From: Collimonas arenae
Lineage (GTDB): Bacteria > Pseudomonadota > Gammaproteobacteria > Burkholderiales > Burkholderiaceae_D
Direction of reading: 5' to 3'
DNA: 64,000 bases
Assembly (NCBI RefSeq): GCF_001584165.1
Contig: NZ_CP013233.1
Location: forward strand, 4,224,620-4,288,619
In this document: positions 1 through 58,075 of the stretch, piece by piece
Layout: each line of letters opens with the position of its first letter
Position numbering within the stretch: position 1 is the stretch's first letter
The notes under the pieces: generated by a model
The model's database searches: none
Told to the model about the DNA's origin: nothing
Seen by the model: the letters and a program-made list of their open reading frames with translations, nothing else
Position numbers and translations under genes: made by a program

Positions 1-757
1 ACTTCGGCGGCGTGACTGGTGCAGTTGGCCATAACCTGGACCGTTTGGAAGGTACACGTACCAACAATTCGATCCGTTACAACACACCAGACGTATCGGG
101 CTTCACAGCTAGCGCAATCTACGGCTTCGGCGAAACAGCTGGCCAAACATCGAGCGGTCAATCGTTCGGTCTCGGCGGTCAGTACGCAAACGGCCCACTG
201 GGTCTGTTCGCTGCTTACTACCAATCGAAACTGGGTACTACACCTAGCGACGTTTCCCTGACCAACAGCGCTCCAGTATTCGCTGGTGCGCACGCTGGCG
301 ACACAGCTCTGAAGACATTCTCGTTGGGCGCTAGCTACCAAGCTGGTCCAGCACGTCTGTACGGTAACTGGTCGCGCGTTAAGCAACCTCTGGCATACAG
401 CTCGACTGCTAACACAACCGGCGTTATCCAACCAGGTAGCTTCACTATCGGCAGCTTCAATAACCAAAAGCTGACATCTTCGAACTGGGCGTGAACTACG
501 CTGTTACAGCTCCTCTGCACCTGTTGGCTAGCGTTCAATACAGCAAGCTGACTTTTGCTGATGTTGGCTCGGACAAGGGCAAGCTGACCCAAATCAACCT
601 GGGTACAGACTACTTCCTGTCGAAGCGTACTGACCTGTATGCGTTTGTTTCGAACCTGCGCGCTAAAGATGCTGTCAATCCAGGCGTCCTGGGTGACAGC
701 ACCGGTTCCGACAACAACCAAACAGCAGTTGCTGTTGGTATCCGTCACAAGTTCTAA
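1..757 (+). CDS. Gram-negative trimeric porin, 3' portion, one apparent frameshift
   Basis: This is the C-terminal part of an outer-membrane general porin; the 5' end lies outside the window. Short alternating beta-strand segments with Tyr/Ala/Gly run to a C-terminal RHKF, the terminal Phe expected for BAM-dependent assembly. Translation runs in one frame from base 3 and stops at 494, while the rest of the barrel continues in the next frame through DIFELGVNYA to the stop at 755-757. One extra A in the run at 466-469 gives an uninterrupted QKADIFELGVNY. The strong terminator just downstream fits a highly expressed monocistronic porin gene. The family is certain; whether the frameshift is biological is doubtful because similar lesions recur across the window. 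Confidence 0.88.
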
Positions 758-812
758 TTTAGGCTGACCTAACCCGCTGTATTTGGCGGACCAGGTTGCT
801 TGACTAGAAATG

Positions 813-848
813 AAAAGACCCACATGGGAAACCATGTGGGTCTTTTTT
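813..848 (+). terminator. Rho-independent terminator of the porin gene
   Basis: A perfect 15-bp stem (arms 813-827 and 832-846) closes on a GAAA tetraloop and runs into a U tract. The A-rich 5' arm mirrors the T run, so it may also work on the other strand. It lies 56 bases after the porin stop. Confidence 0.93.
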
Positions 849-975
849 ATTGCATTGCGCATTCGCGCAAGAGCTAGTTGCCCCATAAAGTTGTCATGCA
901 CTGGGATAGCGGTGTACCCTAGGCCATTCTCCGCTGTTCTTTCATTTTCCTCATCACCGAACTCATCCACACCAC

Positions 976-1632
976 ATGACCACCCATCTTGATCCCGATA
1001 CTGTCGCCCAATATCTGATCGACTCGCCGCATTTTTTTGAAGAACACGCAGAACTGCTTGCCAAGATCAGGCTGACCAGCCCGCTGCTGGGGCGCGCCGT
1101 ATCGCTGCAGGAGCGCCAGATGGAAGTGCTGCGCGAAAAAATAAAAGTACAGGATTTGCGCCTCGCCGATATGGTCCGCAACGCGCAAGAAAATGACGCG
1201 ATCACGCACAAACTGCATACCTGGACGCGTAGCCTGCTGCTGGCCCGCAACGATGTTGATCTGCCGCATACGCTGGTCGACGGGCTGCGCACCACGTTCG
1301 CCGTGCCGCAGGCTACCTTGCGCATCTGGGGTGTTGCCGACGCTTATGCACATACGTGGTTTGCCGTGCCGGCATCGGATGACGCCAAGATTTTCGCCAA
1401 CGGCCTGAGCATGCCATTTTGCGGTGGCAACAACGACTTCGAGGCAGCTTCCTGGCTAGAACCGGGTGTCCAGTCGATCGCCATGCTGCCGTTGCGGAGC
1501 GGTTCGACAACCTTCGGCCTGCTGGTGCTTGGCTCTCCCGACCCACAGCGCTTCGGTGCCGATATGGCGACCGACTTCCTGGTGCAAATCGGCGAGACGA
1601 CCAGCGCCGCGTTGACCTGCCTGCTCGAATAA
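976..1632 (+). CDS. DUF484 family protein
   Basis: This 218-residue cytoplasmic protein is DUF484, a GAF-like fold found directly upstream of xerC in many beta- and gammaproteobacteria. The N-terminus shows the characteristic VAQYLIDSPHFFEEHAELL segment, followed by a helical stretch (about residues 35-75) and a GAF-like alpha/beta half. The biochemical role is unknown. The stop lies 8 bases before the xerC start, so the two are probably co-transcribed and translationally coupled. Length is normal for the family. The ATG at 976 is the first in-frame start before the conserved N-terminus. Confidence 0.85.
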   Translation: MTTHLDPDTVAQYLIDSPHFFEEHAELLAKIRLTSPLLGRAVSLQERQMEVLREKIKVQDLRLADMVRNAQENDAITHKLHTWTRSLLLARNDVDLPHTLVDGLRTTFAVPQATLRIWGVADAYAHTWFAVPASDDAKIFANGLSMPFCGGNNDFEAASWLEPGVQSIAMLPLRSGSTTFGLLVLGSPDPQRFGADMATDFLVQIGETTSAALTCLLE

Positions 1633-1639
1633 CCCTCTT

Positions 1640-2626
1640 TTGCCCGACACCGTGAGCCGCGCCGCCAACCAGGCCTATCTGACCGCCTATCTGAGCAGCC
1701 TGGCCGGTCAGCGCCAGCTGTCGCCGCACACGATCAGCAATTACACGCGTGACCTGGACGAACTCGCCGGCCTGACGCAAGGGCTTGGCGAGGGCTGGGA
1801 CTATGCCGCAGTCACGCACTTCCATATCCGCAAATTCGCCGCGCAATTGCACTCCCGTGGTTTGAGCCCAAACTCGATCGCCCGCAAGCTGTCCGCCTGG
1901 CGCGGTTTCTTCGAATGGCTGGCGGAACAAACCACGCTGGCCAGCAATCCGGTCGATGGCGTAAAAGCGCCCAAGCGCGCCAAGCCATTGCCCAAGGCCC
2001 TGGCGGCGGACGATGCGATACACCTGGTCGCCAGCGGCAACCCGCTTGCCGAGGCAGGATCGAGCCTGGCCTTGTGCAACCAGGCGATGTTCGAATTGCT
2101 GTATTCCAGCGGCTTGCGGGTGTCGGAACTGGCTGGCCTGGATCTGCGCTACACCCGCCAGGACGGCCATGAATCGGCGGGCTGGATCGATTTTGATGCG
2201 GCGGAAGTAACCGTGACCGGCAAAGGCAACAAGATGCGCAACGTCCCGGTAGGAAAGCCGGCGTTGCAGGCGATTGCCGCGTGGTTACCACAGCGGGAAA
2301 CACTGCTCAAAGGCGATCAGGTCAACGATATTTCTGCATTGTTCCTGACTGAACGTGGCACTCGCATGTCGCCACGGGTGATTCAACTGCGCCTGAAACA
2401 CCACGCGCAATCCCTCGGCATCGCCAGCAATGTCCATCCGCACGTGTTGCGCCACTCCTTCGCATCCCACATGCTGCAAGGCTCGGGCGATTTGCGCGCG
2501 GTGCAGGAATTGCTGGGCCACGCGTCGATTGCCGCCACCCAGGTCTACACCGCGCTCGATTTCCAGCGCTTGGCGCAAGTCTATGACGCGGCCCATCCGC
2601 GGGCTAAAAAAATCCCGGATAAATGA
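1640..2626 (+). CDS. xerC: Tyrosine recombinase XerC
   Basis: XerC acts with XerD at dif to resolve chromosome dimers before division. An N-terminal SAM-like DNA-binding domain (about 10-100) is followed by the catalytic domain with all six active-site residues: R160, K195, H268, R271, H294 and nucleophile Y303 (numbered from the TTG at 1640). The HVLRHSFASHML and LLGHASIAATQVYT motifs are typical. No ATG is available near the N-terminus; the start is TTG 1640 or GTG 1652. Position behind DUF484 separates XerC from XerD. The gene belongs to the core genome, and nothing suggests a mobile integrase. Confidence 0.93.
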   Translation: MPDTVSRAANQAYLTAYLSSLAGQRQLSPHTISNYTRDLDELAGLTQGLGEGWDYAAVTHFHIRKFAAQLHSRGLSPNSIARKLSAWRGFFEWLAEQTTLASNPVDGVKAPKRAKPLPKALAADDAIHLVASGNPLAEAGSSLALCNQAMFELLYSSGLRVSELAGLDLRYTRQDGHESAGWIDFDAAEVTVTGKGNKMRNVPVGKPALQAIAAWLPQRETLLKGDQVNDISALFLTERGTRMSPRVIQLRLKHHAQSLGIASNVHPHVLRHSFASHMLQGSGDLRAVQELLGHASIAATQVYTALDFQRLAQVYDAAHPRAKKIPDK

Positions 2627-2677
2627 TGTAATCCCAGATTTCAATGACATTTCGCGGGCACTACCTCATCACGACTC

Positions 2678-2755
2678 CGTCATCCTCGCGAACGCGGGGA
2701 TCCAAATTACAGAGCAGAATGAGAAAAATGGATTCCTGCGGTCGCGGGAATGACG
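2678..2755. repeat. REP-like intergenic palindromic element
   Basis: Imperfect inverted arms (2678-2704 and 2729-2755) begin CGTCAT and end ATGACG, with GCG/CGC-rich cores and GGATCCA / TGGATTC inner ends around a 24-base A-rich loop. The arms resemble dispersed extragenic palindromes of Proteobacteria. It sits between xerC and the Fur-type regulator. A dispersed copy number cannot be checked here. Confidence 0.6.
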
Positions 2756-2816
2756 CAGCTAACTGGAGCGCGGCAGCATCCGCTCGCACTCATTTGGCGC
2801 ATTTGTCACATCAAAT

Positions 2817-2833
2817 ATGCAACTGAATTGCAT
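2817..2833. promoter_or_regulatory. Candidate regulator operator upstream of the zur-like gene
   Basis: ATGCAA and TTGCAT half-sites 5 bases apart lie in an AT-rich stretch about 45 bases before the Fur/Zur-type gene, where an autoregulatory operator would sit. The motif is not a clear match to the published gammaproteobacterial Zur box, so the assignment is tentative. Confidence 0.3.
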
Positions 2834-2874
2834 TTTGGGGCATAATTGAACTCTTCCCTCTTACCATCGCGGCC

Positions 2875-3474
2875 ATGAACCCAAGTCAAAAATCCAAATC
2901 TGCCGGTGCTCAAGCTGCAACAGCAGCCAAGGACAGCTCTCATCAGCATGCTGCGGCACTGGCTGAGGCACAGCTGCGCGAGGTTGCCGTGCGCATCACG
3001 CCGGCTCGCACAAAAGTATTGGCAACCCTGCTGGAAGCGCGCTGCGCTTTCTCTCATCAGGACATGCAAGACCAGTTCGTCGACATGGACCGGGTGACGC
3101 TGTATCGCGCGCTCGATTGCCTGACCGATGCCGGCCTGGCCCACAAGATCGCCGGCGACGACCGCGTGTTTCGCTACAGCGCGGGCGCCGAGCATAGCGA
3201 TTCCGGTCACCATGGCGATCCAGGCCACCACGCCCAGCACCAGCACGGACATTTCAAATGCACGCGCTGCGCCAAGGTGTTTTGCCTGGATGGCAGCGGC
3301 GACGCCAATTTCCTCGATAGCGTACTGGCCGCCGGCAGCAGCAACGACGGCGCCAGTCCGGCCGCACTGCGCAAGCAATTGCAGCAGACCTTGCAAGAGA
3401 CGCTTGGCAAAGGCTTCCAAGGCCACGAGATCGAACTGACCATCAAAGGCTGGTGCGCCGACTGCGTTCACTGA
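2875..3474 (+). CDS. zur: Fur-family metalloregulator, probably Zur
   Basis: This 199-residue Fur-superfamily repressor is probably the zinc sensor Zur. The N-terminal winged helix (about 35-100, with DRVTLYRALDCLTDAGLAHK) is followed by a His-rich stretch (about 103-127) and two CxxC pairs, C129/C132 and C194/C197, which form the structural zinc site of the family. It is longer than ordinary Fur (about 140-150) because of a Lys/Ala/His N-terminal tail, the His-rich insert and a Ser/Ala-rich loop. The next gene is a COG0523 zinc GTPase and a ZnuD-like receptor lies 3 kb on, favouring Zur over Fur. Metal specificity is inferred from context. Confidence 0.82.
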   Translation: MNPSQKSKSAGAQAATAAKDSSHQHAAALAEAQLREVAVRITPARTKVLATLLEARCAFSHQDMQDQFVDMDRVTLYRALDCLTDAGLAHKIAGDDRVFRYSAGAEHSDSGHHGDPGHHAQHQHGHFKCTRCAKVFCLDGSGDANFLDSVLAAGSSNDGASPAALRKQLQQTLQETLGKGFQGHEIELTIKGWCADCVH

Positions 3475-3546
3475 TCCGGAGCCGACACGCGCATTACCTG
3501 GCGACTCCATCCCCTTTCTTCGTTTTTCCTTTTTCCGACTATCACT

Positions 3547-4632
3547 ATGGCACTGATCCCGACCACCATCCTGACCGGCTTTCTCGGCGCCGGCAAAACC
3601 ACCCTGCTCAACCGCATCCTGCAACAGCAGCACGGCCACAAGATCGCCGTGATTGAAAACGAGTTTGGCCAGGAAAATATCGACAATGAAATCCTGGTAC
3701 AGGACAGCACCGAGCAAATCGTTGAAATGAACAACGGCTGCATCTGCTGCACTGTGCGTGGCGACCTGATCGTCGCGCTGACCACGCTGGCGCGCCGCCG
3801 CACCGCAGGCGAACTCAATTTCGACCGGGTGATCATCGAAACCACCGGCATGGCCAATCCCGGCCCGGTGGCGCAAACCTTCTTCGTCGATGACGAAGTG
3901 GCGATGCATTTCATGCTGGACGCGATCGTCACCGTGGTCGACGCCAAGCATGCGATGTCGCAGCTCGACCAGCAGGAAGAAGCGCAGCGCCAGGTCGGTT
4001 TTGCCGACAAACTGCTGCTGTCCAAAACTGACCTGGTCGATGCCGAAGAGGTCGCCGCCCTGACGTCGCGCCTGAAACGCATCAATCCGCGTGCGCCGAT
4101 CATTACGCTCGATCCGCAGCACACGCCGATTGAAGAAATCCTGGATATCCGCGGCTTCAACCTCAACGCCAAACTGGAGATCGACCCCGATTTCCTGGAA
4201 ACCGAAGAACACGCGCACGATCACAGCGGCGACGATTGCGACCATCCTTCGCATCAGCATGACGGTGAGCATGACGGTGAGCACGACGGCCACCACGACA
4301 GCCACCACCATAACCACCATCAAGCGCACCACGACGATGAAATCGCCGCTTTTGTTTTCAAAAGTGAAAGGCCTTTCGATACCGCCCGCCTGGATGAATT
4401 CCTCGGTGGCCTGGTGCAAGTCTACGGACCGCGCATGTTGCGCTACAAAGGCGTATTGTTGATGGATGGCGCAGACCGCAAAGTCGTATTCCAGGGCGTG
4501 CATCAAATCATGGGCAGCGATGTCGGCGGCAAATGGGACGCAAATGAGACACGCGGCAGCAAAATGGTCTTCATTGGCAAAAATCTACCAAAAGACATCT
4601 TTATTCGCGGTTTGGAGCAATGTTTGGTATAA
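3547..4632 (+). CDS. CobW/COG0523 zinc-chaperone GTPase (ZigA/Zng1-like)
   Basis: This is a 361-residue G3E-family GTPase predicted to deliver zinc to client enzymes under zinc starvation. Walker A is GFLGAGKTT at residues 11-19, the metal-binding CxCC is C65-I-C67-C68, and a SKTD motif replaces the NKxD guanine site, as is common here. A strongly His/Asp-rich stretch (about 222-265, over 15 His) precedes the C-terminal CobW_C domain. It starts 72 bases after the zur-like gene on the same strand. Family membership is secure; zinc as substrate is inferred from the CxCC, the His-rich arm and the neighbours. Confidence 0.88.
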   Translation: MALIPTTILTGFLGAGKTTLLNRILQQQHGHKIAVIENEFGQENIDNEILVQDSTEQIVEMNNGCICCTVRGDLIVALTTLARRRTAGELNFDRVIIETTGMANPGPVAQTFFVDDEVAMHFMLDAIVTVVDAKHAMSQLDQQEEAQRQVGFADKLLLSKTDLVDAEEVAALTSRLKRINPRAPIITLDPQHTPIEEILDIRGFNLNAKLEIDPDFLETEEHAHDHSGDDCDHPSHQHDGEHDGEHDGHHDSHHHNHHQAHHDDEIAAFVFKSERPFDTARLDEFLGGLVQVYGPRMLRYKGVLLMDGADRKVVFQGVHQIMGSDVGGKWDANETRGSKMVFIGKNLPKDIFIRGLEQCLV

Positions 4633-4848
4633 ACTATGGCAGTTTTGCGCTGGGAAATCACTGGATAGCACACCCGAAACATGATGGCATGACTGCTGAT
4701 TTACGGGATTGTTGAGAACCAGACTGGATAGATGGACAGTCACAACTGGATGCGCAGCAAGGCGCCGGCGCGCCGATACAGCAATGCACCAGTTACGACC
4801 GACACCAATGTTCAATCTGGATCCCGACAAGCCGCAAGGGAGAGGACC

Positions 4849-5364
4849 ATGAACCTGACCGTTAAGAAGACTGTCGCCAAGCAAGCTCCGGCGGCGCTGG
4901 ATAAATTGACTGCGTCAAGCAAAGCCCAGGCCGCGGGTAAGGCCAGTGTTCCCTCCAACAAAGCAGCGACAACTGAAAAAGCAGTTGAGAAAACCCGGAA
5001 GCTTTCCGCCAAGGCGGAGCGCAAGACCGAGACGCCCACTGCTACCGCATCAAAAGCATTGCCCAAAGTTGCCAAACCCAGTCCCAAACCTGTTGTAAAA
5101 TCCTTAGCCAAGAAAACGGCGACTGCCAAGTCAGTATCGAAATCAAGTCCCGCCGCTGACGAGGCAACGCGCAATACAACGGTGAAAACCAGTAGTTCTG
5201 TTACAAAGAAACTGAATTCCCCAACGGCCAGATCCGGCGCTGGCAGCATCAGCGACAAGCCCGCAAGTGCCGGATCAACGGATAAAATTGAAAAAACGTC
5301 GTATCGAAAGCAAGCGAAGTGGCTACTAAAACAACCAAACCGACCCAAGAAACCGTTCTGTTGA
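4849..5364 (+). CDS. Lys/Ala/Ser-rich low-complexity segment, probable N-terminal extension of DksA
   Basis: This 171-codon reading frame starts at an ATG preceded by GGGAGAGGA and encodes almost only Lys, Ala, Ser, Thr and Pro, with no fold that I recognise. It overlaps the start of dksA in another frame by 46 bases. One added A in the 6-A run at 5291-5296 joins it in frame to dksA through EKNVVSKASEVATKTTK. From memory, some Burkholderiales DksA proteins carry Lys/Ala-rich N-terminal tails. I therefore favour one long DksA (4849-5762) broken by a sequencing error. The alternative is a separate small basic, histone-H1-like protein whose translation is coupled to dksA. Confidence 0.5.
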   Translation: MNLTVKKTVAKQAPAALDKLTASSKAQAAGKASVPSNKAATTEKAVEKTRKLSAKAERKTETPTATASKALPKVAKPSPKPVVKSLAKKTATAKSVSKSSPAADEATRNTTVKTSSSVTKKLNSPTARSGAGSISDKPASAGSTDKIEKTSYRKQAKWLLKQPNRPKKPFC

Positions 5365-5762
5365 CCGAAGAGCAAATCCTCAAGATGGGCGAAAAGGATT
5401 ACATGAACGAGGCGCAACTGGCTTTCTTCAAAGCGCGCTTGCAGCAGTTGGAAATCGACCTGCTCAAGAACGCCGGAGAAACCACGGAACATTTGCGTGA
5501 GACTGTCCTGGTGCCGGATCCGGCAGATCGCGCCACCATCGAAGAAGAACATGCGCTGGAATTGCGCACCCGCGACCGCGAACGCAAGTTGCTGAAAAAG
5601 GTGCAGCAGTCGATCGCATCGATCGATGCCGGCGAATACGGCTGGTGCGAAGAAACCGGCGAACCTATCGGCATTCCACGCCTGCTGGCCCGTCCGACAG
5701 CGACCTTGTCGCTGGAAGCGCAGCAACGCCGCGAACTGAAACAGAAACTTTACGGCGACTGA
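5319..5762 (+). CDS. dksA: RNA polymerase-binding transcription factor DksA, one-cysteine type
   Basis: DksA binds the RNA polymerase secondary channel and works with ppGpp on rRNA and amino-acid promoters. The 147 residues from GTG 5319 show the coiled coil with the tip motif DPADRA and the conserved ELRTRDRERKLLKKV. The globular domain keeps IPRLLARPTA, but of the four zinc-finger cysteines only C110 (YGWCEET) remains; the others are T, S and A. This resembles zinc-independent alpha/betaproteobacterial DksA forms. The GTG has a weak ribosome-binding site, which supports the idea that translation really begins at 4849 in the upstream segment. Confidence 0.9.
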   Translation: MATKTTKPTQETVLLTEEQILKMGEKDYMNEAQLAFFKARLQQLEIDLLKNAGETTEHLRETVLVPDPADRATIEEEHALELRTRDRERKLLKKVQQSIASIDAGEYGWCEETGEPIGIPRLLARPTATLSLEAQQRRELKQKLYGD

Positions 5763-5788
5763 TCCTCAATCTCGATCGGATATCGGAT

Positions 5789-5819
5789 AACGCGCCCGGC
5801 AATCCAGCGGCGCGTTTTT
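5789..5819 (+). terminator. Rho-independent terminator after dksA
   Basis: Arms AACGCGCC (5789-5796) and GGCGCGTT (5809-5816) enclose a 12-base loop and run into five Ts. It begins 27 bases after the dksA stop. Confidence 0.75.
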
Positions 5820-5891
5820 CCTTGCATCTGTCCTGATTTCCGAACGCTGCATACTGCCTCTTCAACGACTTCCGTTATCCCACGCCATCTG

Positions 5892-6272
5892 ATGTCAGCG
5901 TCGTCACATCGCTCCAGACGTTTCGGGCACGCCGCTCTCGCGCCGCTGCTCGTATTGACGATCCTGTTCGCGCAGTGGCTGGGCTTGACGCACAGCGTCG
6001 TCCATGCGGCCTGGGAAAACAAGCAATCGACCCAGCTGACGCACCTGACGTCGGTTATCGAAAAGGCTATCGAAGGCGGCGGCAAGGCGCATCACTCCTG
6101 CGCCGCTTTCGACGATGCCACCCTGGCTGCGGTCATCTACACTGTGCCGCTTATCTTGCCGCCCATGCCGGGCAAGCATGTCCTGGCAAAGTGGCAGGCA
6201 TTCGCTTCATGGGATGCGCCGTTCACCTGCCATTTTTCACCGCGCGCCCCACCCAGCCCTGACAGGCTTTGA
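5892..6272 (+). CDS. Small exported protein upstream of ZnuD-like receptor (DUF2946-like)
   Basis: The 126-residue product starts with a basic N-terminus and one hydrophobic segment (about 15-35) that ends in AHA-type residues, so it is probably exported or membrane anchored. The rest contains HHSCAAFDDATLA and a C-terminal RAPPSP tail, resembling the DUF2946-type short proteins that sit before TonB-dependent metal receptors. I do not know its function. The His/Cys cluster could bind metal. It precedes the receptor gene by 257 bases on the same strand. Start ATG at 5892; an upstream ribosome-binding site is weak. Confidence 0.6.
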   Translation: MSASSHRSRRFGHAALAPLLVLTILFAQWLGLTHSVVHAAWENKQSTQLTHLTSVIEKAIEGGGKAHHSCAAFDDATLAAVIYTVPLILPPMPGKHVLAKWQAFASWDAPFTCHFSPRAPPSPDRL

Positions 6273-6529
6273 CGCCATCGGCACCGCCCAGCGGCGCCCT
6301 CCAGAAGATCCGGCCGGACCGGATCGCCAATCATTTATTGCCGCCGCGAACAACCTTCTTTGCGTTCGATGACGCTTAGCGGCGTACCTGTGTCGCATGG
6401 CCATTGCCGTTGCGGTCGATCTGCGTCGACTGTAGTGGTGAAGCCGGCAACGTATGGGTGCGCCTTGCGTCAGAACATCCGCATTGCACATTGCAGCCAA
6501 CGGCGGCAGCAGCCTGTCAAGGAATCATC

Positions 6530-29934: not shown

Positions 29935-31439
29935 ATGGGCAGTAAACTCAAGAATATCGGTCTCATCAGCTTGGGCGTGATCGCAGGGATCGGCGCTTCA
30001 ATCCAGTTCGACGCCATTGCGCAGAAGAGCGCGGCCGCTCCGTTGCCGCTGGAAGAACTGCGGCAACTGGCCGATGTATTCGGACTGATCAAGTCCGACT
30101 ACGTCGAACCGGCGGATGACAAAAAACTGCTGACCGAAGCCATTTCCGGCATGGTAGCGTCGCTCGATCCGCACTCGGCCTATCTGGACAAGAAAGCTTA
30201 CAAAGAGTTGCGCGAGAGCACGCAAGGCAAGTTTGTCGGTCTCGGCATTGAAGTCGGCATGGAAGACGGCTACATCAAGGTTGTGTCGCCGATCGAAGAT
30301 TCACCGGCCTACCGGGCCGGGATCAAGGCCGGCGACCTGATCACCCGCCTCGATGCAACTCCGGTCAAGGGCTTGACCCTGGACCAGGCGGTCAAGCGCA
30401 TGCGCGGCGAACCGAACACCAAGATCACGCTGACCATTTCCCGCAAGGATGAAGACAAGCCGTTGATCATCAGCATCACGCGCCAGGAAATCAAGGTCCA
30501 GAGCGTCAAGGCCAAAGTAGTCGAACCGGGCTATGCCTGGCTGCGGGTAACTCAGTTCCAGGAACCGACGGTTGACGACATGGCCAAGAAGATCGCTGCG
30601 ATCTACGCGCAGGAGCCGAATCTGAAGGGTCTGGTGCTTGACCTGCGTAACGATCCGGGCGGCGTACTGCCGGGTGCGATCGGCGTCTCTGCCGCCTTCC
30701 TGCCGAAGGATTCGGTAGTGGTCACCACCAACGGCCAGTTGCCAAGCTCGAAGGCGTCGTTCTACGCCAAGCGCGAATACTATGCGAATCCAGGCAGCGA
30801 TCCATTGGCGAAACTGCCTGAAGCGCTGAAGAAGGTGCCGATGGTGGTGCTGGTCAATACCGGTTCGGCCTCTGCCTCGGAAATCGTCGCCGGCGCGCTG
30901 CAGGATTACAAGCGTGCGACCATCATGGGCACCCAGACCTTCGGCAAGGGTTCGGTGCAATCGGTGATCGCATTGCCGCCGGACCGCACCACCGCGGTCA
31001 AGCTGACCACTGCGCGCTACTACACGCCGAACGGCCGCTCGATCCAGGCCAAGGGCATCGTGCCGGATGTGATGGTCGATGAATACGCCGACGGCGATGG
31101 CCTGAACGGACTGCGTCTGCGTGAAGCCGACCTGACCAAGCATTTGAGCAACGACACCGACAAGGGGCCGGAAGTAACCTCGCCAAAAGTCGATGAGCTG
31201 GAAGAAGCACAACGGATTGCCGCTGCCGAGAAAAACGCAAGCCGCTGGAATACGGCAGCAAAGACGATTTCCAGTTGGCGCAGGCGCTTAACCAGCTGAA
31301 GGGCTTGCCGGTCAAGATCTCCAAGGTGAAGCCGGAAAGCCGCAGCGACGCCGAAAAGGATGACAAGGACGACAAGACGCCGCTCGACGATGACAAGGCC
31401 GGTGGCGGCGCCATCATCAAGAAAGAGCAGAAAAAATAA
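29935..31439 (+). CDS. ctpA: S41 family carboxy-terminal processing protease, one apparent frameshift
   Basis: This is a periplasmic tail-specific protease with an N-terminal hydrophobic segment (about 6-24), a PDZ domain (about 95-170) and an S41 protease core with Ser313 (in TGSASASEIVAG) and Lys338 (in TFGKGSVQ). The open frame stops at 31299, but the family tail continues in the next frame as EYGSKDDFQLAQALNQLKG to a Lys-rich end at 31439. One added A in the 5-A run at 31231-31235 restores it. It follows envC by 3 bases; the terminator lies downstream. The envC-ctpA pair is usual in this order. Confidence 0.9.
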
Positions 31440-32934: not shown

Positions 32935-33046
32935 GCGCGTTGGATCGAAAGGAGGCAGGAATTTACACGACAGGCAATCGCAGTGCGGCACGCGTCCGCC
33001 GCGCGCAGCAACACTCAAGCCCGTCCAGGCAAACACCGGACCGCCT

Positions 33047-33188
33047 GTTCTCTCTTTATCCGGACTATACCGTCGGCCCCGGGATCACACCGGGTCTGCT
33101 GACCTTGTCGCTACTCCGACAAGCGCTCGCGGGCTATGCGCATTGCACGCAATTACCGCCGGTGGGGAATCGCACCCGCCCTGAGAAC
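33047..33188 (-). ncRNA. FMN riboswitch (RFN element)
   Basis: Read on the minus strand this segment has the RFN core: AGGGCGGGTG then ATTCCCCACCGGCGGTAAT, AGCCCGCGAGC, CCCGGTGTGATCCCGGGGCC and GACGGTATAGTCCGGAT, with closing arms GTTCTC / GAGAAC. It lies 146 bases before the lumazine synthase gene and is expected to lower its expression when FMN is plentiful. The arrangement suits translational control. Confidence 0.95.
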
Positions 33189-33286
33189 ACTCGCTTAATT
33201 AATTAAGCGAGCAGCAAATTTATCACAGAAATTGCGGCGCTGCACAAGCCGGACGAATCCGGCGTCGCTGATCGAATCAATTCGCA

Positions 33287-36901: not shown

Positions 36902-38073
36902 TTACTGCGCAGCGCCCAACAGTTTCCACTTGCCGTTGACGATTTCCACCATCACGCGCGAGCGCTGGTCGAAGCCCACGTGGTCGGTTGGACTCATGTT
37001 GACGATGCCTTGCGACACCGGCAGATTCTTGATCGCTTCGATGTCGTCGCGCAGCGCAGCTCGGAATTCCGGCGTGCCTGGCTTGCCCTTCTTCAGCGCT
37101 TGCGGGCGGCTGCGCCCAGCAGCATGCCGGCATCCCAGGCGTGGCCGCCGAAAGTGGAAATGCTGCCGGCGCCATAGGCCTTTTCATAGGCGGTACGGTA
37201 GGCCATGGCGGACTTCTTGACCGGATTGCTGTCCGGCAGCTGTTCGGCCACCAGCAACGGCCCGGCTGGCAGGTACGTGCCTTCGCAATCCTTGCCGCAG
37301 ACGCGCAGGAAATCGTTATTGGCAACGCCGTGAGTCTGATAGATCTTGCCTTTGTAACCGCGTTCCTTCAACGTCTTTTGCGGCAATGCGGCCGGCGTAC
37401 CGGCGCCGGCAATCAGCACCGCATCAGGGTTCGCGCTGACGATCTTCAGCACTTGTCCGGTTACGGAAGTATCGGGGCGAGCGAAACGTTCATTGGCAAC
37501 AATCTTGATCTTGCGCAGTTCAGCCAGTTTGGAGAACTCGCGATACCAACCTTCGCCGTAAGCATCCGAAAAGCCGATGAAGGCCACGCTCTTGACGCCG
37601 GCATCCAGCATATGAGCGACGATTGCTGTCGCCATCTGCGAGTCGTTTTGCGGCGTCTTGAAAATCCAGCGGCGCTTGGCATCGACCGGCTCGACCAGCG
37701 ACGCCGAAGCGGCCATCGAAATCATCGGCGTACCGGATTCGGCGGCAACGTCGCTCATCGCCAGCGAACCGGGAACCGCTGTCGAGCCGATCAGCAGATC
37801 AACCTTTTCTTCACTGATCAGCTTGCGCGCGTTCTTGACGGCGGTGGTGCTGTCGGTGGCATCGTCGAGCACGATGTATTGCACTTTCTGGCCGGCGATT
37901 TCCTTCGGCAACAGGGGGAAGGTATTTTTCTCGGGAATGCCGAGCGAGGCTGCGGGTCCGGTGGCAGAGACACTCACGCCGACCTTGATCTGGGCGAATG
38001 CACTGCCGTAGCTGGCAGCCAACGCCACTGTCATTAATGCGGAAAGGGTGGTCCCCAACCATGCTTTTTTCAT
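36902..38073 (-). CDS. ABC transporter periplasmic substrate-binding protein (LivK type), one apparent frameshift
   Basis: Periplasmic binding protein of the HAAT importer, about 390 residues once repaired. A signal peptide (1-26, ending SAFA) is followed by a type I periplasmic-binding fold with KVGVSVSATGPAASLG. The frame stops at 37093 after GMLLGAA, but the conserved tail continues in another frame as KPGTPEFRAALRDDIEAIK and NMSPTDHVGFDQRSRV to a stop at 36902. One extra base in the G run at 37104-37106 (C run on the coding strand) restores it. The ligand is unknown. First gene of the liv operon. Confidence 0.88.
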
Positions 38074-38299
38074 TTGATGTGCTCCATTATGGTGGTAACG
38101 CCTGGTTTTAGCGTCTATGCTCAGCGGCAACAGCCTCGGTCGCCACGACCGCAGATGTTAGCAGGGTACTGAGTTGGCGGCTGCCAGTGTAGCTTTTCGA
38201 CTACCGCCAGACAAGCAGGCCACACCACAACGAGATAGGCAAAATCGGGAAATTCGGCCAAATCGCATCGAACGGGACGGATCCAGCCAGGTAACATCA

Positions 38300-49695: not shown

Positions 49696-49781
49696 TCATT
49701 TGCAATTACTCGCACGGCAATAACGCGCAAGCACGTGGTGCTGCGACCACATGCGCCGTAATTGAAACCGATTGTAATACT

Positions 49782-49797: not shown

Positions 49798-49825
49798 GTT
49801 ATCCTGCCGCACAGTTATAGAAATT

Positions 49826-49848
49826 ATAGCGATCAAACAGATCGCTAT
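49826..49848. promoter_or_regulatory. Inverted repeat near the exbD start
   Basis: ATAGCGATC and GATCGCTAT form a perfect 9-bp inverted repeat with a 5-base AAACA spacer, 29 bases before exbD. It could be an operator or a leader hairpin. Confidence 0.45.
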
Positions 49849-49877
49849 CTCTGCAAATATTCAACTGGAGTGCGGCA

Positions 49878-50285: not shown

Positions 50286-50293
50286 GCCCAGAC

Positions 50294-51031
50294 ATGACGA
50301 CCACGCCGTTTTTTTATCGATTCCGAGATGCGGTGGCAACGCTGCCGTCGCTACTCATACTCGCCATCCTGATCCTTGCCGGCATCCAGAAGGCAGTAAA
50401 GATCCAGGCACACACAGACGATTCCACAGTGCAGATTGCGTTGACGGAACCCGATCCACCTGCGCCGCCCGTGGTAACACCAGTGACGCCTACGCCGCCA
50501 ACGCCAACACCGCCGCAGGTTGTGAAACCGGTTCCGGTAATGCAACCGGTGCGCCCGCAGCCGGTGCCGCAACCGACAGTCAACCCCACACCTGTCAGCA
50601 CTCTACCGAGCGCTGAAATGGCTGCTCCGGCTCCAGCACCGATTCCTACCCCGGCGCCGCCAAAAGCCGTTCCGGCACTCCCGACGCCAGCACCGGAAGC
50701 GCCGCCCGCCAAGCCGAGCAACGCCAGCGTCGAGTCCGGCTATGTCGCCAAATTACGTGCACACCTGAACAGCATCAAGCGCTATCCGACAGGGCGTGAA
50801 GCCAGCCAGCAAAGGCCGCAAGGCAAGGTCAAGGTCTGGTTTGTCCTGAAGCGCGACGGCACGCTGGTCGAGCAAGGCATCGACGAGTCATCGAACTCCA
50901 TGCTGCTTGACGACGCTGCCCGCAAAACCATCAACAGAGCTGCTTTTCCCGCTTTTCCCGAATCCAGCTGGACCGGAGAGGCGACACACCGATTCAGCGC
51001 CGAGTTGGAGTTCGTCCCGGGGGCGGGATGA
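50294..51031 (+). CDS. tonB: TonB family energy transducer
   Basis: The 245-residue TonB-like protein has one membrane helix (about 16-34), a long Pro-rich periplasmic stretch (about 50-145) able to span to the outer membrane, and a C-terminal TonB domain (about 155-242) with YVAKLRAHLNSIKRYPTGRE and KVKVWFVLKRDGTL. It starts 9 bases after exbD and is 60 bases before the receptor gene, so it is probably dedicated to it. Confidence 0.9.
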   Translation: MTTTPFFYRFRDAVATLPSLLILAILILAGIQKAVKIQAHTDDSTVQIALTEPDPPAPPVVTPVTPTPPTPTPPQVVKPVPVMQPVRPQPVPQPTVNPTPVSTLPSAEMAAPAPAPIPTPAPPKAVPALPTPAPEAPPAKPSNASVESGYVAKLRAHLNSIKRYPTGREASQQRPQGKVKVWFVLKRDGTLVEQGIDESSNSMLLDDAARKTINRAAFPAFPESSWTGEATHRFSAELEFVPGAG

Positions 51032-51091
51032 TTTTTGAAACACGCACTTTTTAATCACTTACAACACCGAAAACGTACAGGGAGTAATGCC

Positions 51092-53485
51092 ATGCAATTC
51101 AAAGTCACCCGGCTGTCACTGCTGATCTCCGGGTTATTCATCGCCGCCAGTCCACTGACCTACGCTGCCGACACCACTGAAGTCGGCAAGGTCACCGTGC
51201 AAGGCGATGCCAACGGCGGTCAAAGCACTGGACTGATCCAGCAAGAAGAAACGCCGAAAGCGCGTAGCTCGGTCAATCGCGATTACATGGAAAAGCAAAG
51301 CACCACCAGCAATCCATACCAGATGATCAATCTGCTGCCAGGCGTGAACTCCTACGACCAGGACGGCACCGGCCTGTTCGGTGGCAACGTGCGTGTGCGC
51401 GGCTTCAACAGCGATCAGTTGGGCTTCACCATCAATGGCGCACCGGTCAACGATTCGGGCAGCTTCGCCGTCTATCCGCAGGAATACACCGACGCCGAGA
51501 ACCTGTGCGACATCTTCGTCACGCAAGGCTCGACCGACACCGAAGCACCGCATGTCGGCGCCTCCGGCGGCAATATCGGCATGACCATGTGTACACCGGA
51601 AGACAAGCAACGCTTCCGCACCGAATACACATTCGGCTCCAACAGCCTGCAGAAGGGCTACGTGCGCTTCGATTCGGGCAAGATTTTCAACGACCGTTTC
51701 AAGTTCTTCCTGTCCTACTCGAAAACCCAGGCTGACAAGTTCAAGGGCGAAGGCCGTGCCGACAAGGAACACGTCGACTTCAACAGCAAGTTCGATCTGG
51801 GCGGCGGCAGCTATGTCGACACCGGCTTCATGTACAACTCTGCCATCAACAACAACTACCGTTCGCTGACCAAGGCACAGATCGCCCAGTACGGCCCGAA
51901 CCTGGATTTCGGCACTGTCGCTCCAGTACATCAACCGGGTGGACCTGGCGCGCAAAACGATTCGACTTACGGTCCGAATGCCGGCATCAACACCGGCGCC
52001 AAGAACCTGTACTACGGCTACAACCTGAATCCGTTCAAGAACTGGCTCGGCACCATGAATGCCCACTTCCAGCTGGCACCGACATCGAGCATCGATGTCA
52101 GCCCCTACATGTGGTACGGCTTCGGCACCGGCGGCAACCAGTTGCAGACTGTCACCGAAGGCAATGCCGGCAACCTGTTGGGCGGCGGCGTACGTGATGC
52201 CAACGGCGACGGCGACACCAAGGACACCGTGTTTGCTTATGAAGGCAGCCGCACCCGCACGTATCGCCCAGGCGTGACGATCAAGTACAACCAACAGATC
52301 GACAATCACAAGCTGATGGTCGGCTACTGGTATGAGCGCGCACGTCACCAGCAAACCGGCCCATACACCACAATCGACAACAGCGGCAATGCTTCCGATG
52401 TCTGGCTCAACAACCCGAGCGCATGGCTGAAAAATCAGGATGGTTCCTACGTTCAGTATCGCGACACGATGACCATCAGCACCGGTAAATCGGCGTTTGC
52501 GCAAGATAGTATCAGCCTGCTGCAAGACAAGTTGAATCTGCAGGTTGGCGCCCGCTATTCCAGCATCGACCGCGACTTCACCAACAACCCGAGCCAAAGC
52601 TCGCCAGGCTTCTATACCTTACAGAAATCGTACTCCGATCTGCTGCCTAGTTTCGGCGCACGCTATCAGCTGGATCAGGTGCAATCGGTGTTCTTCAATG
52701 CGGCCAAGAACTTCAAGGCGCCTGGAAATTTCTCGTATTTCAACCTGATCTCCGGCGGCACTATCGTCAACGGCGTGTACACCGGCGGCACCGTCCGTCC
52801 TGTGCCGGTCGACAAGGAAACTTCGTGGAACTACGACCTCGGCTACCGTTACGCTGCTGACAAATGGACGTTCTCCGGCTCGCTGTTCTATATCAATTTC
52901 AAGAACCGCATCGCCACTTCGTACAACCAGGACACCAACAGCAATACCGATTACAACGTCGGCGATTCGACCTCCAAGGGCCTGGAACTGGAATCCGGTT
53001 ACTCGATCACCAAGAACCTGAGCCTGTACGGTTCGCTCTCTTACATCAAGAGCAAGATGGACAACAACATGCAATATTCGGCGACCGCGACGTTGCCGAC
53101 TGCCGGCAAGGAGTTTCCTGATACGCCGAACTGGCTGAGCGGCATGAGCCTGCAGTACGCGCAAGACAACTGGTATGTGTTCAGCCAGGCCAAATACACC
53201 GGTAAGCGCTACACCACGCTGGTCAACGACGACAGCATCGGCGGCTATACCGTGTTCAACGCCGGCGCAGGATACACCTTCCCGTCGTCGACCTGGCTGA
53301 AAAGCCCGACGCTCAAGTTCAACGTCAACAATATTTTTGACAAGAAATTCCTGAGCCTCAGCTCCGGCAGCGGCAGCCAATTCACCACGAACTCCGTGGC
53401 GATCGGCAGCATCGCGGCATCGGCGCCGTCGTTCTATGTCAGCCCACCGCGTACCTTCAGCGTATCGTTGATCGCGGATTTCTAA
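51092..53485 (+). CDS. TonB-dependent outer-membrane receptor of unknown substrate
   Basis: The 797-residue receptor from ATG 51092 (CAGGGAG upstream; signal peptide ending TYAA) has a plug domain (about 50-175) with MINLLPGVNSYDQDG and a 22-strand barrel ending in LIADF with terminal Phe. The TonB-box region is near the mature N-terminus. The substrate is unknown; its own ExbD/TonB/ExbB, a 5'-nucleotidase-like lipoprotein and a phospholipase D family protein suggest a phosphorylated or nucleoside-like ligand. That is inference from context. Confidence 0.88.
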   Translation: MQFKVTRLSLLISGLFIAASPLTYAADTTEVGKVTVQGDANGGQSTGLIQQEETPKARSSVNRDYMEKQSTTSNPYQMINLLPGVNSYDQDGTGLFGGNVRVRGFNSDQLGFTINGAPVNDSGSFAVYPQEYTDAENLCDIFVTQGSTDTEAPHVGASGGNIGMTMCTPEDKQRFRTEYTFGSNSLQKGYVRFDSGKIFNDRFKFFLSYSKTQADKFKGEGRADKEHVDFNSKFDLGGGSYVDTGFMYNSAINNNYRSLTKAQIAQYGPNLDFGTVAPVHQPGGPGAQNDSTYGPNAGINTGAKNLYYGYNLNPFKNWLGTMNAHFQLAPTSSIDVSPYMWYGFGTGGNQLQTVTEGNAGNLLGGGVRDANGDGDTKDTVFAYEGSRTRTYRPGVTIKYNQQIDNHKLMVGYWYERARHQQTGPYTTIDNSGNASDVWLNNPSAWLKNQDGSYVQYRDTMTISTGKSAFAQDSISLLQDKLNLQVGARYSSIDRDFTNNPSQSSPGFYTLQKSYSDLLPSFGARYQLDQVQSVFFNAAKNFKAPGNFSYFNLISGGTIVNGVYTGGTVRPVPVDKETSWNYDLGYRYAADKWTFSGSLFYINFKNRIATSYNQDTNSNTDYNVGDSTSKGLELESGYSITKNLSLYGSLSYIKSKMDNNMQYSATATLPTAGKEFPDTPNWLSGMSLQYAQDNWYVFSQAKYTGKRYTTLVNDDSIGGYTVFNAGAGYTFPSSTWLKSPTLKFNVNNIFDKKFLSLSSGSGSQFTTNSVAIGSIAASAPSFYVSPPRTFSVSLIADF

Positions 53486-53503
53486 TCCAGCTGTAGTAAC
53501 CCC

Positions 53504-53527
53504 GGCGGTGGACTTCGGTCCACCGCC
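53504..53527 (+). other. Intercistronic UUCG hairpin between receptor and exbB
   Basis: GGCGGTGGAC and GTCCACCGCC form a perfect 10-bp stem closed by a TTCG tetraloop, with no T run. It is a very stable RNA hairpin 36 bases before exbB, suited to transcript processing or partial termination. Confidence 0.7.
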
Positions 53528-53563
53528 ATGAATTTAAGTGCATTCGTGCGCAGAGAGGTCAAT

Positions 53564-54214
53564 ATGAACATGCAATTATTCCACGAACTCGCTTTCTACC
53601 TGATGTACGCCTGCGCCGCCCTGGCGCTCTTCGTGATTGTGGAACGCGGACTCTTCTTCAACTACACACTGCGCCAGGCCATCGGTCTGGAAAAGGCCAT
53701 GACCCATGCAGTCCAGCATGTGCAGGAACTGCCGGCCGAGTTGACGGCGCGCGCCAGCCTGCCGCTGACCCTGGTGTCCGATATCCTGGCCGAAAAACAT
53801 CAGTTGACCAGCGAGAAGGATCTTGAGGATTTCAGCGAGTCCGTTTATATCGCCAACCGCGGCGAAGTGCAGCACCGCCTGTGGATTCTCGACACCATCG
53901 TCACCGCAGCGCCGCTACTCGGACTGCTCGGCACGATTTTGGGTATTATCGATACCTTCAAGGCGTTGGCAGTATCCGGCGTATCCGATCCAGGCCAGGT
54001 ATCGCAGGGCATCGGCACCGCACTATATGCAACAGCATTGGGGATCGGCATTGCCGTGGTCGGCATGTTCTTCTTCAACATGTTCCAGGAACGGATCGAG
54101 CGCATCAACGATCACCTGAAAGTCTTGATGTTGCGCGCCTGCGTCGGCCGAGTCGCTGATAATGGCGCCAAAGCCGCGGCTGCGGCAGAAGCCCGAAATT
54201 TACATTTGGCCTGA
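53564..54214 (+). CDS. exbB: ExbB/TolQ family (MotA-type) proton channel
   Basis: The 216-residue protein has three membrane helices (about 10-30, 105-130, 150-178) with APLLGLLGTILGIIDTF, the MotA/TolQ/ExbB signature. With ExbD it forms the motor for TonB. ATG 53564 is preferred (MNMQLFHELAF); the earlier in-frame ATG at 53528 lies directly at the UUCG hairpin. It follows the receptor, an unusual order because exbB normally precedes exbD. Confidence 0.92.
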   Translation: MNMQLFHELAFYLMYACAALALFVIVERGLFFNYTLRQAIGLEKAMTHAVQHVQELPAELTARASLPLTLVSDILAEKHQLTSEKDLEDFSESVYIANRGEVQHRLWILDTIVTAAPLLGLLGTILGIIDTFKALAVSGVSDPGQVSQGIGTALYATALGIGIAVVGMFFFNMFQERIERINDHLKVLMLRACVGRVADNGAKAAAAAEARNLHLA

Positions 54215-54245
54215 TTAAATTCTATTTGAAGACTGGTTGAACTCC

Positions 54246-55976
54246 ATGCGTGCAATCTCCATTGGCCGGACCAAGTTATTGTGCTGCATGGCCGCGGCCT
54301 TGCTGGGCGCTTGCAGCAGCTTGCCAAACGCCCCGGCCAGTGCGCCGGTAGAGCTCAACCTGGTCGCCATCAATGACCTGCACGGCCACCTCGAAGCCGA
54401 AACAAAGAGCTTTGCCAGCATTGCCGACGCCGTCGGCACCGCGCCGCGCAAGCTCAAGGTTGGCGGCATCGACACCATCGGCGGCGCCCTCAATGCCTGG
54501 CGCGCCGAAGATCCGCAACTGCTGCTGGTCGGCGCCGGCGACCTGATCGGCGCCAGCCCTGCACTATCCTCCATCTGGGCCGATGAACCAACCATCTCCG
54601 CCCTCGGCCAACTCGGCCTGCGCGTCAGTTCAGTTGGCAACCATGAATTCGACCAGGGCAGCGCAGAGTTGCTGCGCTATCAAAACGGCGGCTGTAAATC
54701 CACTCGCCCCGACAAGGCTTGCCAGTTCGAAGCCCATTATCCTGGTGCGAAATTTTCCTACCTCGCGGCCAACGTGATCGACAATGCCAGCGTCCAGCCA
54801 ATGCTGCCGCCCTACCGCATCGAACAAATACGCGGCGTCAAGATCGCCTTCATTGGCGCAGTCGTGCGCGGCACCGAAAAAATGGTCTCCGCCGACGGCA
54901 TCGCCAACGTCCATTTCATTGATGAGGCCGAGGCCATCAACCGTTGGGTGCCCGAGATCAAGGCACAAGGCGTCAGCGCCATCGTGGTCCTGATTCATCA
55001 GGGCGGCGAAACCAAGGAACCGTTCGACAAGGTGGCCTGCAGCCAATTGCAAGGCCCGATCGTCGACATCGTCAAACACCTCGATCCAGCCATCAAGCTG
55101 GTGATCAGCGCCCACAGCCACCAGGGCTACACCTGCCAGGTCGACGGGCGCACCGTCACGCAAGGCGAATCGTTCGGCCACATGCTGACCCGCATCAGCC
55201 TGACCATCGATCCGCGCGTTGCCGACCTGCCTGGAAAAATTACCGCGATCCGCGCATACAACGTGCTGATGGATACGCAGCGCTTCACTCCCGATCCGGC
55301 GCTGTCGGCGTTCCTGCAAAAACTCAAGGCACGCAGCGACGTAGTGCTGGCGCAACCGATTGCGCGCATCGCGGTGCCGCGCATCGATAACCACATCAAC
55401 GAAGCCGGCGAATCGCCGCTCGGCGACGTGCTGGCCGATTCGCAACTGGCGGCCACGCGCAAGCTCGGTGCGCAAATCGCCATGACCAATCACAAGAGTA
55501 TCCGCGAAAGCCTGGAAAGCGGTCCGGCCGGGACCAACTACGCACAGGTTGCCGCCACCACGCCGTATGGCAATACGCTGATCCTGCTGACGCTCACCGG
55601 CAGCCAGATCCAGGCCTTGCTGGAACAGCAAAGCTGGCTCGAACAGGATCGCCAGGGCGGCCGCGTCATGCTGCAGGTTTCACACGGCTTGAGCTATCGC
55701 TGGGACGCCGCCAAACCACTCGGACAGCGCGTGCTGCCCGGCAGCATCAAGCTGAACGGCGCCGCCTTGGATCCGCGCGGCCAATACCGCGTCAGCGTCA
55801 ACAGCTTCATCTCGCAGGGCGGCGACGGTTTCAGTTTGCTGACCCAAGGCGCAGATCGCGTCGACACCGGCATCAACGACCTCGATGCGTTGAGCCATTA
55901 CCTGATCGCCAGCGAGCACGATGGCCATCCGGCCGGCAGCGCCCAAACAGCCGGTCGCATCGTACGCGTTCATTAA
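54246..55976 (+). CDS. Lipoprotein of the bifunctional metallophosphatase/5'-nucleotidase family
   Basis: The 576-residue protein from ATG 54246 has a lipoprotein signal (LLGACSS, Cys about 23). The calcineurin-like metallophosphatase domain (about 38-270) shows INDLHGHLE, GAGDLIGASP, VGNHEFD and SAHSHQGYT, the metal ligands of the UshA group. The 5'-nucleotidase C-terminal domain (about 360-545, NHKSIRESLESGPAG) binds substrate. It should release phosphate from nucleotides or similar esters in the periplasm or at the outer membrane. It follows exbB by 31 bases. Confidence 0.88.
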   Translation: MRAISIGRTKLLCCMAAALLGACSSLPNAPASAPVELNLVAINDLHGHLEAETKSFASIADAVGTAPRKLKVGGIDTIGGALNAWRAEDPQLLLVGAGDLIGASPALSSIWADEPTISALGQLGLRVSSVGNHEFDQGSAELLRYQNGGCKSTRPDKACQFEAHYPGAKFSYLAANVIDNASVQPMLPPYRIEQIRGVKIAFIGAVVRGTEKMVSADGIANVHFIDEAEAINRWVPEIKAQGVSAIVVLIHQGGETKEPFDKVACSQLQGPIVDIVKHLDPAIKLVISAHSHQGYTCQVDGRTVTQGESFGHMLTRISLTIDPRVADLPGKITAIRAYNVLMDTQRFTPDPALSAFLQKLKARSDVVLAQPIARIAVPRIDNHINEAGESPLGDVLADSQLAATRKLGAQIAMTNHKSIRESLESGPAGTNYAQVAATTPYGNTLILLTLTGSQIQALLEQQSWLEQDRQGGRVMLQVSHGLSYRWDAAKPLGQRVLPGSIKLNGAALDPRGQYRVSVNSFISQGGDGFSLLTQGADRVDTGINDLDALSHYLIASEHDGHPAGSAQTAGRIVRVH

Positions 55977-55997
55977 TCAAATTCTTCTGGATTCCAA

Positions 55998-57214
55998 ATG
56001 CGTAAACTGATCGTCTCGATTGCCATCCTGCTTGGCTATGGCACTGCCGCCCATGCCGAGTTCGGCATCCCCGGCTATGAACTGGTGCATACAGTGCCAG
56101 TTGAAACCGCGCTGGCCACGCCCGATTTGCGTGAACCGCTGCAGGTCTGGAGCGAAATGTTCGACGGCGCCAAGCACGATATCGTGCTCGGTCAGTTTTA
56201 CGTTGCCAGCCAGCCTGGCGCAGCGTTTGAACGCGTCATTGAACGGCTTGCCGCCGCCGGTAAGCGCGGCGTCAAGATCCGCTTCCTGATGGAAGAAAAA
56301 GGCAAGTTCGCCTCCGACATGCCGACCATCGAACGCCTGAAGAAATTCCCAATCTGGAATTCCGCTATCTCGATTATTCCAAGCTGACTGGCAACGGCAT
56401 CATCCACGCCAAATACATGGTGAGCGACGGCAGCACCGCCTATGTCGGCAGCCAGAATTTCGACTGGCGCTCTTTCGCGCACATCCACGAAACCGGTTTG
56501 CGCATCACCGATCCGGTGGTGGTCGCCCAGGTACAAAATATTTTCGAGCATGATTGGCAGGCACAAGAATTGATCGCACAAGGCAAGCCGGTGCCACGCC
56601 TCAATCAAACCGCAGTGGCCGCCAACGACCAGCAAGCGACATTCCTGGTGGCCAGCCCGAACGCCTTCAATCCTCCCGGCGTTGGCGACTCCGAAACCGA
56701 GCTGCCGAAACTGCTGGCTGCCGCCAAATCCGAAGTACGGATCCAGCTGCTCGACTACGCGCCGCTCAGTTACGGCCCCAATCACACGCGTCCTTTTTAC
56801 GCGGTGATCGACGATGCGATCCGCAGCGCATTGGCGCGTGGCGTCAAGGTCAAGCTGATGGTGTCAAACTGGAACACCGAGAAGCCGGCAATCGATTATT
56901 TGAAGAGCCTGGCGCTGCTGCCCGGTATGGAGATCAGGATTGTGACGCTGCCGCAAGCCAGCAGCGGCTTCATTCCGTTTGCGCGGGTGATCCACAGCAA
57001 AACCATGGAAATCGACGGCCAAGTGGCCTGGATAGGCACCAGCAACTGGAGCGGCGGCTATCTGGATAACTCACGTAACCTGGAAATCGTGTTGCGCAAC
57101 GAGAAGATGGCGAAACGGATTGCCGATCTGCACCTGCAAACCTGGGATTCGGCGTATGCCGAGCCGATCGATGTGATGAAGGATTATCCCAAGCCGGTCA
57201 AGGGCAAGGAATAA
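55998..57214 (+). CDS. Phospholipase D family protein, one apparent frameshift
   Basis: This exported protein (signal peptide 1-18, ending AHA) has two HKD motifs: HAKYMVSDGSTAYVGSQNF and HSKTMEIDGQVAWIGTSNW. The frame breaks at 56387, just before the first HKD; EFRYLDYSKLTGNGIIHAK continues in the next frame. One extra base in the AAATTCCC tract at 56343-56350 gives an unbroken protein of about 405 residues. It cleaves phosphodiesters; the substrate (lipid or nucleic acid) is unknown. It follows the nucleotidase gene by 21 bases and probably shares its transcript. Confidence 0.85.
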
Positions 57215-57278
57215 TCCTGGATGTCGATAAGCGCTGTTCATACTTATCGACTAGAGCCACTCAAACAAATCAAACAGA

Positions 57279-58075
57279 TCAGGCCGTCCCCACCACCGCA
57301 GTCAGCATGCTGATCGAGCCGATATCGATGCCGTCCACCGCAATCGAAATCGCCTCGTCATCGTGCTTGGTGCCGGCAATGTACAACAGCGGCAGATAAT
57401 GCTCCGGCGTCGGCACCGACAATTGCGCGTCCTGGCCCTGGTCGGCGTAGTCGATCACCGCCTGCAGATCGCCGTTCAGCAACGACGCGCGGATGTGGTC
57501 GTTGAAACGCAGCGCCCAATCGTGCGCCGCGGCGGGCCGCCGCGCGTCATCAGGCGCAGGTTGTGCACCACATCGCCGCTGCCAATGATCAGCACGCCCT
57601 GCTCGCGCAGCACCGCCAACTTGCGGCCCAGGTCAAAATGAAACTGCGCCGGCTGCGTGGCATCGATGCTCAGCTGGATCACAGGCACATCGGCCTTCGG
57701 AAAAGCCTTGACCAGCACCGACCAGGTGCCGTGATCCAAGCCCCAGGATTGATCCATCGTCACATCGAGCGGCGCCAGCAAATCACGCACCTGCGCTGCC
57801 AACGCCGGATCGCCAGGAGCCGGGTAGCGAACATCGAACAATGCCTGCGGGAAGCCACCGAAATCATGGATGGTTTTCGGTTGCGGCATCGCCGTCACGC
57901 CAATGCCGCGGGTGTACCAATGCGCGGAAATCGACAGGATCGCTTTCGGCTGCCGCAGCGCCACGCTGGCGCCCAGCTGTTCCCAGGCGGCGGTATAACG
58001 GTTGTCTTCCAATGCATTCATCGGGCTGCCGTGACCGAAGAAAATCGCCGGCATGCGGGTGGCGCTTGTGCTCAT
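57279..58075 (-). CDS. DODA-type extradiol aromatic ring-opening dioxygenase (YgiD-like), one apparent frameshift
   Basis: This is a LigB-superfamily protein resembling 4,5-DOPA dioxygenase, about 265 residues after repair. FFGHGSPMNAL, SISAHWYTRG and GLDHGTWSVL supply the metal-binding His residues. The main frame stops after the RLMTRGG segment, and the remaining third (AAAHDWALRFNDHIRASLL, then EHYLPLLYIAGT) continues in another frame. One extra base in the G run at 57534-57536 restores it. ATG 58075 chosen. It is the second gene of a doxX operon divergent from a LysR gene. The natural substrate is unknown. Confidence 0.85.

Follow-up and report, generated by a model that had tools for sequence, protein, structure and literature searches.

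In a 64,000-nucleotide stretch of a Collimonas genome (the window; positions 4224620-4288619 of a single contig of 4,723,987 bases), six genes are each broken by the net loss of one base. They code for a porin, a DksA-family protein, a CtpA-like peptidase, a LivK-like binding protein, a PLD-like protein and an extradiol dioxygenase. On the basis of sequence comparison, we regard the six breaks as single-base deletions that remained as errors in a long-read consensus and not as mutations present in the organism, a reading to which we assign a probability of roughly 0.96. The run length of identical bases would be the weak point of a consensus produced with HGAP3 and Quiver; a base dropped at such a run would shift the reading frame, and gene callers would in turn report truncated genes.

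The window was compared with five Collimonas relatives, whose proteins were aligned to its six-frame translation using 80 kb of matching DNA per relative. All statements on frame breaks are comparisons with intact relatives, in which no base was restored. All 12 Collimonas genomes searched matched a 6 kb portion of the window, and the top matches of the ctpA piece among named genomes were likewise Collimonas. Thirteen clusters of frame changes were detected in the window, and exactly six of them, those in the porin, dksA, ctpA, livK, PLD-like and dioxygenase genes, were supported by all five relatives; at the DNA level each corresponds to the net loss of one base. This is what the original prediction, made from the letters of the stretch alone, had claimed: six genes with one missing base each, and no gain among them. 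The seven other clusters had one to three supporting relatives and, by our reading, mark gene starts or over-called upstream stretches. As a control, each of the five relatives was taken in turn as the target of an identical procedure. This yielded 4, 6, 1, 2 and 4 clusters with at least two supporters, none of them backed by more than three of five relatives, although the control is weaker near the ends of the relatives' stretches (a loss at 331564 in the relative G012 was seen only in the wider scan described below). The same six genes stand out when C-terminal ends are compared: 6 of 58 window genes end at least 12 residues away from all relatives, and in the relatives themselves this test returns 1 or 2 of 55-62 genes each. 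No seventh broken gene end appeared among these 58 genes when compared with all relatives, although a loss fewer than about twelve codons from where a gene ends, or one outside genes, would be missed. The suspicion that other intact-looking ends might be affected was therefore not borne out within the window, while outside of it many more genes turned out to be broken.

With the exception of the porin, the breaks lie where they had been predicted. The upstream piece of the Gram-negative porin (Porin_4) occupies 12-494 on the forward strand and the remainder of the gene continues in another frame. The break falls at 464-469 (+), with the gap after base 464 in five of five relatives; the predicted locus was right, but the exact run proposed for it (466-469) is not established; the gap lies two bases away. 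The protein alignment reads +11 here, which is congruent to -1 modulo 3; at the DNA level the gap is -1. In dksA the break is situated in a run of A at 5290-5296 (+; predicted 5291-5296), within a long N-terminal extension upstream of the DksA domain. The upstream piece carrying this extension spans 4732-5364 (+), and the piece with the DksA domain stays open as an open reading frame (ORF) of its own at 5319-5762 (+). The upstream piece of ctpA (29935-31299, +), an S41 C-terminal processing peptidase, includes both the PDZ and the peptidase domains. Its break at 31230-31235 (+; predicted 31231-31235) is placed after 31232 by four relatives and after 31235 by one, and a relative of 504 amino acids crosses it in one frame, with an identity of 98.8% before the break and 87.5% after it.

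On the reverse strand, the N-terminal piece of the LivK-like periplasmic binding protein (Peripla_BP_6) extends over 37093-38130, and its break at 37104-37106 (-), the very run that had been proposed, shows a gap after 37105 in all five relatives. The PLD-like protein (PLDc_2) is divided into an upstream piece at 55998-56387 (+) and a downstream piece at 56417-57214 (+). Its break at 56342-56350 (+; predicted 56343-56350) is best fitted at 56342-56344, and single relatives place it anywhere from 56338 to 56350. The sixth gene encodes a 4,5-DOPA-type extradiol dioxygenase of the LigB family, the N-terminal piece of which lies at 57476-58090 (-). Here the break can be located with a protein of 265 amino acids (P0001) from another contig, 4,709,377 bases long, on which the dioxygenase is intact in one frame. 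Residues 1-181 of this protein match frame -1 of the window and residues 181-265 match frame -3, both at 100% identity, which places the break at 57533-57536 (-; predicted 57534-57536); the relatives place it at 57537-57542.

Six losses out of six have by themselves a two-sided P of 0.03. This is weak evidence, and the case is therefore carried by a wider survey, in which the window and a further 400 kb (464 kb altogether, in three regions of 304, 80 and 80 kb, with a guanine plus cytosine (GC) content of 57.3%) were compared with the two relatives G003 and G012. The counts rest on identity-weighted gene calling. Gene calling on alignment score alone picked antisense ORFs at some loci, including livK, and was replaced. 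Both relatives backed 35 clusters, two of which (OWN_A 3754 and 211082) were excluded before the count as upstream or N-terminal artefacts, so that 33 were kept. Also left out were ten clusters with a single supporting relative (45 less 35) and two sites, OWN_A 74627 and OWN_C 20169, both -1, that were seen under score-only calling and not under identity-weighted calling; a TonB-like locus (OWN_A 9485) was retained despite reading +5 or +2.

The 33 clusters fall in 28 of 356 compared genes, or about one gene in thirteen. At the DNA level, 30 of them consist, against either relative, of a single lost base with no other change; the remaining three are one with two lost bases, the porin with its net -1, and the TonB-like locus. 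Losses hence make up 32 of the 33 clusters, and no single-base gain occurs among the 33 in the 464 kb. Breaks are present in all three regions sampled, at 6.6, 8.8 and 7.5 per 100 kb. Because these regions were not drawn at random, the genome-wide figure of about 336 breaks, roughly 224-458, is an estimate by extrapolation. In the relatives such breaks are far fewer over similar compared lengths: G012 shows five clusters, all losses (P 4e-6 against the genome studied here), and G003 shows two, both gains (P 4e-8). One of the five in G012 (G012_C 79174) reads as two losses against G003 and is messier against the genome studied here. That the breaks of G012 are fewer and yet all losses suggests that a further assembly, probably from the same project, may share the fault.

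The rate of breaks outside the window, 6.75 per 100 kb, is compatible with the 9.4 per 100 kb found within it (P 0.27). This bears on the possibility that nearly all breaks are sequencing errors and a true mutation underlies one of the six in the window, or a few of them. Such a mixture would fit the facts that the sites were judged by sequence comparison and that the dioxygenase is alone among the six in having a match with full identity to either side of its break. However, breaks are not significantly more frequent in the window than in the background, so that errors alone can account for all six, and we consider a mixture unlikely.

If consensus errors are at work, the losses might be expected to touch runs of identical bases. 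For each loss cluster the cut positions giving the closest fit to both relatives were determined, and the longest run touching them was recorded; 3000 random deletions simulated in 324 genes of the same genome and placed in an identical manner served as the null. Runs of at least three bases are touched by 21 of the 32 loss clusters, compared with 18.5% of the simulated deletions (5.9 clusters expected; P 6e-9), and runs of at least four bases by 6 of the 32, compared with 5.2% (P 0.006). The runs concerned are mostly short, being of two to four bases in 27 of the 32 clusters and of three or less in 26. Placement is uncertain by a few bases at the identity of about 80% that the relatives provide, as the dioxygenase illustrates, and the null carries an equal uncertainty.

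The genes broken in the sample include ffh (the signal recognition particle protein) and dnaE (the alpha subunit of the replicative DNA polymerase III) with two breaks each, as well as murE (a murein ligase) and mraY, the last found as a family 4 glycosyltransferase that was identified as MraY. All four are essential in bacteria. In whole-genome searches Ffh appears in separate pieces that cover profile positions 2-79 and 76-411, and the other two matches to the Ffh profile resemble, in score, the FtsY-like and the more distant matches found in the relatives. MurE is found in two pieces (profile 6-101 and 101-471), and the second MurE-like gene that G003 and G012 possess was not found in this genome by whole-genome search. 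MraY is likewise in two pieces (profile 2-169 and 172-321). DnaE is in three, accompanied by a separate intact DnaE-type protein of 1074 amino acids; the relatives also carry a DnaE-type protein beside an intact dnaE. Apart from that 1074-residue protein, whole-genome searches returned no other intact copy of ffh, murE, mraY or dnaE. With all four genes broken, a cell would be all but impossible to grow, which means that the sequence has to be in error at these places. The losses in the window match these in kind and in frequency.

These observations also weigh on the possibility of real gene decay, in which these six genes, together with about 300 more, would be pseudogenes in this strain. 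The frames are indeed broken in the sequence as given, and the coding density of the sample is below that of the two relatives: when the count is restricted to ORFs that have a counterpart in the three-genome set, 80.4% is coding with a mean length of 309 amino acids, compared with 86.7% and 87.6% and with 333-338 amino acids. Genuine pseudogenes, however, should spare essential genes that lack another intact copy, and decay would account poorly for losses in 32 of 33 breaks or for a dioxygenase that is intact on another contig, with 100% identity to either side of the break. Decay is therefore very improbable. Consensus error is favored over it by the essential genes that are broken alike, by the spread of breaks over all three regions with their near-uniform direction, by the enrichment at homopolymers, by the intact dioxygenase and intact mismatch repair genes, and by the sequencing method of the likely strain together with its precedents; the original prediction of a sequencing artefact in place of gene decay is supported on each of these grounds. 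It is also conceivable that hundreds of single-base losses, those in ffh, murE, mraY and dnaE included, are real and tolerated, for example by pervasive transcriptional or translational slippage, and of all the explanations weighed here we give this one the least credence.

A mutator lineage, in which a mismatch-repair defect lets homopolymers slip, would likewise explain why the losses are enriched at such runs. The genes mutS (888 amino acids) and mutL (667 amino acids) are open, though, and score above the family cut-off and like those of the relatives. Slippage should moreover produce gains as well, of which the 33 clusters contain no single-base example; 26 of the 32 losses touch runs of three bases or less, and essential genes are affected. 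We judge a mutator to be even less probable than decay, and hold to errors of the consensus.

As for the technology behind such errors, the assembly is inferred to be that of C. arenae Ter10 or of its near-identical sister Ter282, with Ter10 favored by the low coding density of the sample. Both strains have chromosomes of 4.7 Mb with 56.8% GC (PMC4690342), and their average nucleotide identity (ANI) is 99.97% (PMC11288634). The methods of the genome paper name one PacBio RS II single-molecule real-time (SMRT) cell assembled with HGAP3 and Quiver and Illumina data (2 x 51 b HiSeq reads for Ter10 and Ter282) assembled separately with Ray, and contain no description of polishing (PMC4690342). Errors of comparable kind are on record. 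In Enterococcus faecium ATCC 700221, Illumina reads exposed 561 single-base homopolymer deletions in an HGAP3/Quiver assembly (PMC4888979); their density, 561 in about 3.2 Mb, is of a similar order to the 33 coding breaks per 464 kb reported here, with the difference that our breaks were recognized by frame comparison with relatives. Quiver is described as weak at long homopolymers, and homopolymer frameshifts in SMRT assemblies of Xanthomonas oryzae were ascribed to its consensus (PMC4853030). Those cases were few and involved a long run (nine G), unlike the far more numerous sites found here, mostly at runs of two to four bases. A literature search on Collimonas frameshifts and on Ter10 returned no title on errors in this assembly, which does not show that they have gone unreported.

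The original prediction had left the choice between a long-read and a flow-based platform. Flow-based sequencing (454, Ion Torrent) is known for miscounted homopolymers (PMC6742220), and would in that respect be a plausible origin of the breaks. The breaks are nearly all losses and mostly concern short runs, however, the genome is one contig, and PacBio RS II, HGAP3 and Quiver are what was published for the likely strain (PMC4690342). PacBio RS II with Quiver is accordingly the likelier source, and a flow-based platform seems quite improbable.

Several points weigh against consensus error as a complete explanation. The verdict was reached by comparing sequences, and the comparison with the contig of 4,709,377 bases covers one gene, the dioxygenase. 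The strain was inferred from size, coding density and GC content, and the origin from PacBio, HGAP3 and Quiver hangs on that assignment; the results section of the genome paper, for its part, mentions a combined Illumina and PacBio strategy (PMC4690342). One of the 33 clusters, the TonB-like locus, is not a loss, 11 of the 32 losses touch no run of at least three bases, and in G012 a cluster at 233226, obtained with score-only calling and absent later, reads as a gain against G003. A few breaks could also be real, namely those in rpoS (one break) and in a HipA-like gene (two breaks) of sample region C, which in our judgement are likely places for real mutation. The individual sites are not each proven, and one of the six in the window could be real.

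Altogether, an ordinary and well-explained technical artefact, and not a real feature of the cell, is most likely what the six breaks represent, and the finding stands as a warning about one reference genome. With artificial breaks in 28 of 356 compared genes, claims of gene loss, pan-genome content or pathway composition drawn from this assembly are unsafe without reads, and the advice that any pseudogene call in this genome be checked proves sound. The genome has a completeness score of 99.99% despite these broken genes, which means that the score does not reveal the fault. Should the assembly belong to Ter10, the symptom is already visible in the published table, where this strain is listed with 78.4% coding and a mean coding sequence of 834 nt; the five other strains have values of 85.4-87.8% and 899-927 nt (PMC4690342).

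The two sister strains have also been compared for acyl-homoserine lactones (AHL). Ter282 was positive and Ter10 gave no signal, despite the ANI of 99.97% (PMC11288634), while in an earlier paper one reporter showed no or trace AHL in both strains and a second reporter detected AHL in every strain (PMC4690342). Single-base errors in a Ter10 assembly could mislead the search for the cause of this difference. Elsewhere in the window, a flavin mononucleotide (FMN) riboswitch (RF00050) lies at 33045-33192 on the reverse strand; with 102.8 bits, it is the sole Rfam match at the gathering threshold in the window.
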